Of a DNA stretch of 33,683 nucleotides, positions 18,644 to 20,881 are shown in pieces (position 1 is the stretch's first letter; each line of letters begins with the position of its first letter). The stretch spans positions 1 to 33,683 of the forward strand of contig VXLT01000272.1 of NCBI GenBank assembly GCA_009841475.1, in the 5' to 3' direction. The stretch is from Gemmatimonadota bacterium. Lineage in GTDB: Bacteria > Gemmatimonadota > Gemmatimonadetes > Longimicrobiales > Gaopeijiaceae. Under the pieces are notes generated by a model. That model saw nothing but the letters and a program-made list of their open reading frames with translations, did no database searches and was not told the origin of the DNA. A program made the position numbers and the translations under genes.

Positions 18644-19921
18644 TCAGCCCGAAGGCGGGCTCGCGACCTTCCCGGCGAAGAGGATGGTGCCCGAGAGACG
18701 CTCGCGGATGAAGAAGAGGAAGGGCCGGTCGGCGCGAACGGCCGGAGGCGCGCTCTCCACCACCGAGACGACGGTCGCCGCGGCCGCCTCGGTGCCTTCT
18801 TCGTTGACGTCCACCCAGGACTTCTGCTTCACGCTGGAGATCCACAAGCCCCCGACCGGCGAGAGTCTCGAGAGATCCGCCCGATGACCGAAGGCGTCGA
18901 CCATGCCGAGGGCGGCCAGGTCGTCGTTCAACTTGCGTTCGTAGGCCATGCGGAAGCGCGGGAGGAAGACTTCCATGTCGGTCTCGCGGAAGCTGGCGGT
19001 GAGGTCCTGCCACTGCGTGGCATCGAGGGATGCGGCGAGGTCGTCCACGCTCACGTCCGGCTGTGGAACGAGGATGGTCATCGCGAACGCGCCGCCCCCG
19101 TACGGCAGGTCCACGGCCCGGAACCGGCCGTTCTCCCGGTAGGGAAGGTCTCGCCGCATGGTCATGAGCGGCACGGTTTGCGTGGACCCGTCGTCCAGGT
19201 AGAAGGGTGCGTTGCGCGTGTCGGACCGATTGAACCGGAAGGTCCAAGGGCCCTTGAAGTAGATCGCGTTGATCAGATACATGACGACGTCGCCGGGAAT
19301 CACGGCGGGAACGATGTCCTCGATTCGGCCGTTCGTCGCGGCCTTGACCCACCCGTTGATGCGGCCGGACGCCGAAGGACTCGCGAAATCGAGTTCCGCC
19401 ACCTCGGCGTCGAAGGTCTCGCGCACAGCGGCCAGGAAGTCCGTGTGTACCGGGAAGCCCTGCCGGGTCCACACGGAGTTCCCCACCGCGGTCTCCACGG
19501 AAGGATCCAGGCCGACGAGAAGCTCCAGCAGGGACTCGTAGGCGGCGTTGATCTCTTCCTCGGCGAGGCCGTCGAACCCCAGCACGTCGCGCATCTGGTT
19601 CCAGGTCTCGCCCGCGGCTCCGTTCATGGTCATCCCGAGCGCCATGGACGCCGAGAGTGGCGAAAGGAAGAGGTTTTCGCCCGGGCGGCTGGCCTGCGCG
19701 AGGAGGCCGAAGGCGAATCCGTTGCTCGCCCCGATTACTTCGACCTCGGCGGCGCTCAGGGCGCGCGGAAGCCGGGTGATCTCACGGGGGGACGGATCGG
19801 TGGGCAGCAATCCGCATCCCGCTGTGGCGAGCAGGAGCAGGGTCCCGGGAATGGAGAAGCGGGGGCGGAGCGCGGCCGCGTGGGCGAGGTCGGGCGGATG
19901 TGGAGGTTCAGGTCTGGTCAT
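18644..19921 (-). CDS. Serpin family protease inhibitor, predicted lipoprotein
   Basis: 425 residues. The N-terminus has a hydrophobic stretch ending LATAGC (Cys36), a probable lipobox. The serpin fold follows: NLFLSPLSASMALGM, NAIYFKGPW and the C-terminal PFLFFIRE segment. The hinge EEGTEAAAAT at 374-383 is perfect for an inhibitory, loop-inserting serpin. Counting from P17 (Glu374) places P1-P1' at about Ser390-Ala391, after VVE. Inhibitory serpins trap serine or cysteine proteases covalently. ATG 19921 is chosen over a TTG four codons upstream. It probably shares an operon with the BCCT transporter. The target protease is unknown. Confidence 0.92.
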   Translation of the reverse strand: MTRPEPPHPPDLAHAAALRPRFSIPGTLLLLATAGCGLLPTDPSPREITRLPRALSAAEVEVIGASNGFAFGLLAQASRPGENLFLSPLSASMALGMTMNGAAGETWNQMRDVLGFDGLAEEEINAAYESLLELLVGLDPSVETAVGNSVWTRQGFPVHTDFLAAVRETFDAEVAELDFASPSASGRINGWVKAATNGRIEDIVPAVIPGDVVMYLINAIYFKGPWTFRFNRSDTRNAPFYLDDGSTQTVPLMTMRRDLPYRENGRFRAVDLPYGGGAFAMTILVPQPDVSVDDLAASLDATQWQDLTASFRETDMEVFLPRFRMAYERKLNDDLAALGMVDAFGHRADLSRLSPVGGLWISSVKQKSWVDVNEEGTEAAAATVVSVVESAPPAVRADRPFLFFIRERLSGTILFAGKVASPPSG

Positions 19922-20052
19922 TGCCGTTCCCAATCGTTCACTGAACGGTAGCCCGGCGGGGGGTCGGGGTCCAGCGGTTGCCGGTGGGACCCCTGGTCGC
20001 TAGCGTGGTATCCGAAGGTTGTCGATCTTGGCCGTGCAGCGCTGGAGTTCAC

Positions 20053-20151
20053 ATGTCTACGTTCGTGATGGTTCGTCGTGTCCAGGTACCGGACACCCAG
20101 GCGTGCGGACCTCTCACAGCACTTCCTGCGAAGCAGGTCGCTTGCGGCTAG
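20053..20151 (+). promoter_or_regulatory. Possible leader peptide overlapping the erm start (attenuation-type uORF)
   Basis: A 32-codon reading frame starts at ATG 20053, with GGAG 5 bases upstream, and runs to TAG 20149-20151 in a different frame from the methyltransferase. It begins MSTFVMVRRVQ. The methyltransferase GTG at 20078 has no ribosome-binding site of its own and lies in the 5' arm of a perfect hairpin (GTGTCC 20078-20083, GGACAC 20091-20096). Erm genes are classically controlled by ribosome stalling on a leader peptide. That this frame acts so is inference. Confidence 0.4.
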
Positions 20152-20881
20152 CCTGATCGCTCAGGCTCCCGTCCAACGAAACGATCTGGTCGTCGAGATC
20201 GGGCCGGGCCGTGGTATCCTCACTCGAGAACTGGCGCGTCGATGCCGTGAGGTCGTCGCGGTGGAGTTCGACGGAGCGCTGTCCGAGGCGCTTCGCACGC
20301 GCTTCCTGAGCGACGACCGCGTCACGATCGTCAGGTGCGACTTCCTGCGTTTTCGGCTGCCGGATGTCCCCTACAAGGTGCTGGGGAACATTCCGTTCAA
20401 TCGGACCGCCGCCATAGTCCGGCGGCTTGTCCAGGCCGATTCTCCGCCGCGGGACGCCTGGCTCGTGGTCCAGCGTGAAGCGGCCGAACGGTTTGCCGGC
20501 GGTCCCTGCTCTCGCGAGACCCTGCCCTCGCTGCTGCTCAAGCCGTGGTGGCAGATCGAGATCGTGCGGCGCTTTCGCCGTACCGACTTCGATCCGCCTC
20601 CCCGCGTCGACGCCGTCGCGCTCTGGCTCGCGCACCGAACAAGACCGCTTGTGGACCGAATCCAGGCCGCGCCCTACCGGCGCTTCATGCGGAGTTGCTT
20701 CGGCCGCGACGGCCACTCGATCAGGCGGTGTCTGCGATCCGAATTCACGCGAACGCAGATCCACCGGCTGAGCCGGGATCTCAGGTTTGATCCTTCCGGG
20801 CCGCCATCCGGCCTCACCTTCGACCAGTGGCTAGCGTTGTTCAGGTTCCGGAGGCTGGCGGGATTGCCGAACCGCTTCTGA
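20078..20881 (+). CDS. erm: Erm-type 23S rRNA (adenine-N6)-methyltransferase
   Basis: 267 residues. It has the Erm N-terminus RRADLSQHFLRS, the SAM-binding EIGPGRGILTREL (40-52), acidic VEFD and the catalytic motif NIPF (104-107). The C-terminal part reads LTFDQWLALFR as in Erm proteins rather than KsgA. Erm enzymes methylate A2058 of 23S rRNA and confer macrolide-lincosamide-streptogramin B resistance. The high-GC form resembles actinobacterial and other soil-type Erm proteins. The GTG start is forced because an in-frame stop lies at 20066-20068. KsgA/RsmA is the nearest alternative but fits less well. The gene stands alone between the serpin and the ABC exporter genes. Confidence 0.85.
   Translation: MSRYRTPRRADLSQHFLRSRSLAASLIAQAPVQRNDLVVEIGPGRGILTRELARRCREVVAVEFDGALSEALRTRFLSDDRVTIVRCDFLRFRLPDVPYKVLGNIPFNRTAAIVRRLVQADSPPRDAWLVVQREAAERFAGGPCSRETLPSLLLKPWWQIEIVRRFRRTDFDPPPRVDAVALWLAHRTRPLVDRIQAAPYRRFMRSCFGRDGHSIRRCLRSEFTRTQIHRLSRDLRFDPSGPPSGLTFDQWLALFRFRRLAGLPNRF

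Follow-up and report, generated by a model that had tools for sequence, protein, structure and literature searches.

The 33,683 nt of Gemmatimonadota DNA analyzed here (the window) belong to a genome of 4.18 Mb in 369 contigs, whose nearest named relatives are metagenome assemblies, including some named as Gemmatimonadota, Longimicrobiales, or Candidatus Palauibacter. Sponges, marine sediments, and saline soils are given as habitats of the Palauibacterales (PMC10469786). The window contains a gene predicted to encode an Erm family 23S rRNA (adenine2058-N6) methyltransferase (Table 1). Its product reaches 235.5 bits against NF000499.2, the Erm model of NCBI, exceeding the curated cut-off of 212, and 154.9 bits against PF00398, and its best relative of solved structure is 6nvm_A, an rRNA adenine N-6-methyltransferase. 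The neighbors of erm encode a serpin, a BCCT transporter, and an ABC transporter ATPase; the serpin gene (18644–19933, minus strand; PF00079, 344.9 bits) is divergent from erm. No earlier erm start is possible in the window because a TGA at 20066–20068 closes the frame, leaving GTG 20078 as the first possible start.

Table 1. Features of the erm locus, in window coordinates.
Feature	Position	Strand	Basis
-35-like element TTGCCG, at the left end of the conserved unit	19978–19983	+	pattern in 23/28 copies
-10-like element TAGCGT, 17-nt spacer	20001–20006	+	sequence, pattern in copies
Leader Shine-Dalgarno (SD) GGAG	20044–20047	+	5-nt spacer to ATG; SD plus ATG in 29/30 copies
Leader ORF MSTFVMVRRVQVPDTQACGPLTALPAKQVACG, 32 codons + TAG	20053–20151	+	ATG at -25 in 29/30 copies
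Possible outer helix, GGTTCG 20070–20075 with CGGACC 20106–20111	20070–20111	+	local fold of some copies
Start-codon hairpin of erm, GTGTCC/GGACAC	20078–20096	+	24-row alignment, stem third positions
erm, 23S rRNA adenine N6-methyltransferase, GTG start, 267 aa	20078–20881	+	NF000499.2, PF00398

An earlier note on this DNA had read GGAG and ATG 20053 as opening a 32-codon frame over the erm start, and had placed the erm GTG in a GTGTCC/GGACAC stem and without a ribosome-binding site of its own. Each of these readings agrees with the sequence. The leader frame runs from ATG 20053 to a TAG at 20149–20151; the erm GTG lies 25 nt 3' of the leader ATG, in the +1 frame, and the leader TAG is 71 nt downstream of it, for an overlap of 71 nt between leader and erm. 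By inspection there is no SD-like run directly 5' of GTG 20078; the leader SD is the only good one. As a chance baseline, the ATG and GTG codons of the window (erm left out) and of 12 related loci were examined for an SD-preceded, out-of-frame ATG 13–34 nt upstream and open across the codon; this arrangement was found for 65 of 7,533 (0.86%), a frequency that is if anything too high because each of the 12 loci carries a real erm copy.

The copy set comprised matches of at least 70% identity that include the N terminus, 30 of them distinct; 14 matches lacking the N terminus were left out. Conservation of the leader in related erm loci had been proposed in the earlier note as a check, and it was borne out: an SD and an ATG exactly 25 nt 5' of the erm start are present in 29 of the 30. 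The only change at the erm start codon is from GTG to ATG, in two copies, so that it is still a start codon. Substitutions were counted on a tree of 26 full-length copies built from erm codons 35–255 (L055 and L056 left out), with the leader sites of L038, the single leaderless copy, treated as gaps. The three positions of the leader ATG have 0, 0, and 0 substitutions versus 8, 8, and 7 (23 in total, L038 set aside) at positions -4, -3, and -2, and the first G of the SD core has none. Residues 1–10 of the leader have the consensus M-S-T-F-V-[MLVT]-V-R-R-V, with exceptions at residue 2 in L036, L017, and L018, at residue 3 in L037, L047, and L050, and at residue 9 in L017 and L018. The 32-codon length is kept in 26 of 28 copies, the leader being longer in L036 and L055. 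L038 has lost both the ATG and the SD of the leader to a deletion that lies between the promoter region and erm; an intact copy, L040, is in the same assembly. Within erm itself, R-x-R, the macrolide arrest motif, occurs at codons 3–5 (20084–20092) in 20 of the 26 full-length copies.

The stem at the erm start pairs 20078–20083 with 20091–20096 around a 7-nt loop. In an alignment of 24 copies (the 28 less the leaderless L038 and L045, L018, and L056), 143 of 144 hairpin cells form standard pairs, with no two-sided changes. Of the 31 pairs that RNAalifold predicted from the same 24 copies, none had changed on both sides; covariation is uninformative because the sequences are too alike, and weight was therefore placed on synonymous sites and on the three lineages compared below. 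Third positions of the erm codons in the stem (2, 5, and 6) have no changes, while those in the loop (3 and 4) have four and five. A20093 was exchanged with G three times, altering both proteins and keeping a standard pair. When 30 sequences (28 window-type copies and the two distant loci L057 and L092) were folded, all three start-codon bases were paired, at an unpaired probability of at most 0.1, in 20, versus 20.6% of 456 background positions; L050, L017, and L018 are clear exceptions. At this threshold the erm initiation site is sequestered in mRNA structure, with an unexceptional folding energy: the hairpin does not exceed shuffled sequences (z = 0.14 for the window, and null for L057 too). 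The outer helix is a weak candidate, which competes with other outer pairings, and some copies fold differently.

The same layout is found with two more distant Erm genes. In L057, whose Erm is 53% identical, GGAG is followed by ATG GTC ATG GTC CTC TTC CGT GCC CGG (leader MVMVLFRARS), and the erm GTG overlaps leader codon 7, 19 nt after the ATG. In L092, from a genome in the same order and with an Erm 44% identical, GGAG is followed by ATG ATC ACG GTG ATC TTC CGT GGC CGG (leader MITVIFRGRQ), and the offset from ATG to erm GTG is again 19 nt. The +1 register is constant in the 29 copies and in both of these loci. In each of the two, the GTG falls within the paired part of a local hairpin whose sequence differs from that of the window hairpin, and in a wider fold of L092 it pairs with a different partner. 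Both distant leaders contain R-x-R; window-type leaders have F-V-x-V-R-R-V, with R-R-V instead of R-x-R and no exact known arrest motif. When the three lineages are aligned at the GTG, an Arg codon, CGT, straddles it in all of them (His in L017 and L018), and the x codon of R-x-R in L057 and L092 begins 2 nt after the G of GTG, the place of leader codon 10 in the window. The GTG starts leave 13, 9, and 14 residues before QHFL; in our own translations of the DNA, Erm(X) and Erm(46) have 12 before the matching Gln. Genomes around that of L057, taken as overlapping sets from its order (79 genomes), its class (90), and a sample of the phylum (377), yielded only the L057 and L092 genomes, and no further nested-leader lineages were found in viral contigs. 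Since 29 of 30 copies keep SD and ATG, the ATG is unchanged, and two distant Erm genes show the layout again, the 20053 frame is, on this comparative evidence, a conserved leader and not a chance occurrence.

What exactly is conserved was compared at the peptide and nucleotide levels. In leader codons 2–8 there are 12 third-position changes, 12 first-position (eight of these at codon 6), and three second-position. Codons 4, 5, and 8 have third-position changes only and codon 7 none at all, so that codons 4, 5, 7, and 8 (F, V, V, R), picked after looking, have seven third-position changes and no others. A column-shuffle coding test of codons 2–8, with the 29 copies that have the leader ATG as rows, gave p = 0.079, or 0.089 for the 16 distinct sequences, not significant at 0.05. 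Because of these values, and because codon 6 is free, the constraint on the leader peptide is only suggestive. Constraint on the nucleotide sequence of the overlap is clearer, with the proviso that the beginnings of genes may be conserved on other grounds: in the overlap (codons 2–24), fourfold erm codons average 1.43 third-position changes versus 2.89 elsewhere (p = 0.00065), twofold codons show a trend in the same direction (1.33 versus 2.08, p = 0.10), and the least variable 23-codon stretch of erm begins at codon 5. The invariant GTT at leader codon 7 is not accounted for by the peptide alone.

Upstream of the leader, the pattern TTG-N3-N15..19-TAnnnT ends 33–48 nt 5' of its ATG in 23 of 28 copies. 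Sequence 5' of the -35-like box cannot be aligned across the copy set and is shared by few pairs of copies; what the copies have in common is the unit from this box through the erm stop, while their flanks mostly differ. Among the 26 full-length copies, flank similarity was found in 18 of 325 pairs upstream and 17 of 325 downstream. The unit (window 19978–20881; loci L032–L054) occurs in two families of a single class, and from genome to genome its surroundings are for the most part unrelated. Together the promoter-like elements, leader, and erm look to have spread horizontally, by some route. After the erm stop there is a near-perfect palindrome, GCGCCGATGGCGCATCGGYGC, in L033 (4793–4813) and L034 (2055–2075), with similar sequence in several other copies; it is possibly a terminator or the end of a mobile unit. 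As a repeat element it was rejected, with no match in the window's genome at up to two mismatches.

Of 121 genomes in the window's family, 23 carry window-type erm, fragments counted, and full-length copies with 87–89% identity are found in genus g82, in another family of the same class. Of 298 Gemmatimonadota genomes, 20 have a protein above the Erm cut-off, all of them among the 30 (of 395) matched by the window's own protein. A search of plasmids with the window Erm returned 1,756 records and one of phages 32, every one below 60% identity. N-terminally truncated erm remnants are found at L019/L065, L058–L062, L068, L077, and L078, and some of the genomes with remnants (e.g., those of L062 and L068) also carry a complete copy elsewhere.

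Comparison with described erm systems shows both likenesses and differences. The ErmCL–ermC pair also has a hydrophobic leader stretch (IFVI in ErmCL, F-V-x-V in the window) and an erm initiation region in mRNA structure. It differs in having a spacer between leader and ermC, and the frameshifting induced there by ketolides goes into the spacer, not into erm (PMC5009743). In ErmDL–ermD there is likewise a short leader before an erm disfavored by mRNA structure, and the R-x-R of L057 and L092 has a counterpart in R-L-R, with arrest at codon 7; there, however, leader and ermD have an intergenic region between them, and the stalled ribosome refolds the mRNA (PMC8298421). The window erm, in contrast, begins inside its leader, offset from the leader frame by a single base, and lacks its own SD. 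The same enzyme family, at 32–34% identity, includes Erm(X), Erm(46), and a Dietzia Erm (L119, L120, and L121), but these have an SD directly 5' of the erm ATG, and in these and a pig E. coli plasmid Erm, four loci only, no SD-preceded frame runs into erm within 120 nt. The window locus thus shares two features with inducible erm leaders, a short ORF with an SD located 5' of erm and an erm start sequestered in mRNA structure, but the leader does not end 5' of erm and erm has no SD of its own to be freed. Because this defining separate, freed erm SD is missing, the locus is filed as a variant of known leaders.

This bears on the suggestion in the earlier note that the frame is an inducible erm leader working by stalling: the conserved leader, the only good SD, and the stemmed start all fit, but the usual stalling geometry does not. 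Leader codons 4–10 begin from 16 nt before to 2 nt after the erm start, and a ribosome arrested at any of them would cover GTG 20078; classical attenuation, in which a stalled ribosome refolds the mRNA, is therefore a misfit. The +X+ motif, present as R-x-R in L057 and L092, arrests the ribosome with x in the P site, at codon 7 in the case of ErmDL (PMC8298421). Arrest at the equivalent place here would put the erm start inside the ribosome, and a second ribosome would therefore be barred. The outcomes that remain are a restart at GTG by the same ribosome after loss of its peptidyl-tRNA, a shift into the erm frame, or coupling without sensing.

Most likely, to judge from these sequences, the leader makes erm translation depend on its own translation and senses macrolides. 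Ribosomes would load at the leader SD, and the SD-less, stemmed erm GTG would be used mainly through translation of the leader, whose nascent chain would sense macrolides, with erm expression low when the drug is absent. With drug present, arrest or peptidyl-tRNA drop-off would take place, less surely, at leader codons 8–10, placing the P site somewhere from 4 nt upstream to 2 nt downstream of the erm start, with the stem already melted. Translation would then restart at GTG, a start-codon hand-over in place of the classical freeing of a distant SD for a second ribosome. Macrolides cause drop-off of short peptidyl-tRNAs, in the case of erythromycin after roughly six to eight residues. Restart following drop-off is documented in another setting, where a ribosome that has lost its peptidyl-tRNA resumes on the same mRNA; that case differs in involving poor peptidyl transfer at Pro or D-Ala and restart from an A-site aminoacyl-tRNA, and not erm leaders (PMC8934632).

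For the reading as a whole, that the 20053 frame is a genuinely translated leader on which erm depends, that macrolides are sensed, and that a hand-over is favored, we have slightly more belief than doubt. In its favor are the SD and ATG kept at -25, the lower rate of change at fourfold third positions in the overlap, the nested layout with R-x-R in L057 and L092, a start-codon change that leaves a start codon, and the usual Erm N-terminal length given by GTG. Its most specific element, that the antibiotic-arrested ribosome is itself brought to within 4 nt of the erm start, in a frame one base off, and begins anew at that codon, is put forward tentatively. Against a simple restart, a drug-bound ribosome could be arrested again at the R-x-R of erm codons 3–5. 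Further points that tell against the proposed mechanism are the R-R-V of the window, the weak shuffle test, the nonsignificant twofold comparison, the leaderless L038, the hairpin energy, and the wider fold of L092.

Drug-independent translational coupling would need no sensing: the leader would load ribosomes and melt the hairpin, erm would be constitutive, its level following the flow of ribosomes along the leader, and the sequence of the peptide would be irrelevant. The best-conserved parts, namely SD, ATG, distance, and stem, are those it would use, and the peptide-level test is weak. On the other hand, the absence of first- and second-position changes at leader codons 4, 5, 7, and 8 (as noted, picked after looking) and the presence of R-x-R in both distant leaders suggest that the peptide matters. 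Translational coupling also typically depends on a stop codon close to the start, and the leader TAG is 71 nt downstream of GTG. We consider this explanation unlikely.

A programmed or drug-induced +1 frameshift from the ATG 20053 frame into erm, giving a leader–Erm fusion, would agree with the constant +1 register, and drug-induced frameshifting is known in the ermC leader, but the shift described there unfolds the spacer and yields no Erm fusion (PMC5009743). By eye, there is no recognizable +1 slip site at GTT CGT CGT GTC C and no +1 re-pairing at codons 7–10. The fusion would also have about 21 residues before QHFL versus the 12 of Erm(X) and Erm(46). Since GTG changes only to ATG and gives the usual Erm N-terminal length, a fusion is disfavored, and we regard it as distinctly improbable.

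Classical attenuation could be retained if arrest came later, at about codons 19–20, where the ribosome would keep the 3' arm of the stem from pairing and leave GTG free for a second ribosome. The extension of the leader 71 nt past the G of GTG, its near-constant length, and a Pro at residue 20 in 26 of 28 copies would all suit such an arrest; the residue is Ser in L039 and L050, however, the erm codons dictate this part of the leader, and, from estimated footprints, a new 30S subunit at the SD-less GTG would nearly collide with the stalled ribosome, so that there is very little to recommend it. Least credible of all is the absence of any regulatory function, with an accidental out-of-frame ATG and ordinary non-SD initiation of erm at GTG, for although the statistics for one sequence taken alone are modest (such a frame precedes 0.86% of start-like codons; hairpin z 0.14) and one copy does without the leader, the other 29 retain it with its ATG unchanged and the distant L057 and L092 repeat the layout.

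No overlapping erm leader was found in the open-licence literature at the level of titles and abstract beginnings. A systematic survey of erm leaders, covering 35 known erm genes and further homologs, scanned ~250 bp upstream and the first 10 erm positions for small ORFs, limits that would tend to clip an overlapping leader; neither "overlap" nor "Gemmatimonad" is present in its main text (PMC11264731). Further related literature includes PMC5118997, PMC8274638, PMC6238534, and PMC13410324.

In the erm leaders of the literature seen here, a spacer lies between the site of sensing and the start of the gene, whereas at this locus a single handful of codons would serve both as sensor and as gene start, and the standard model of induction therefore does not carry over without modification. 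The hand-over, if true, would represent a nested-leader class of erm control, of a kind missed by surveys limited to pre-gene sequence. The proposed mechanism would, if true, provide a compact test case for restart by macrolide-stalled or aborted ribosomes, and would add an erm reservoir in uncultured Gemmatimonadota.
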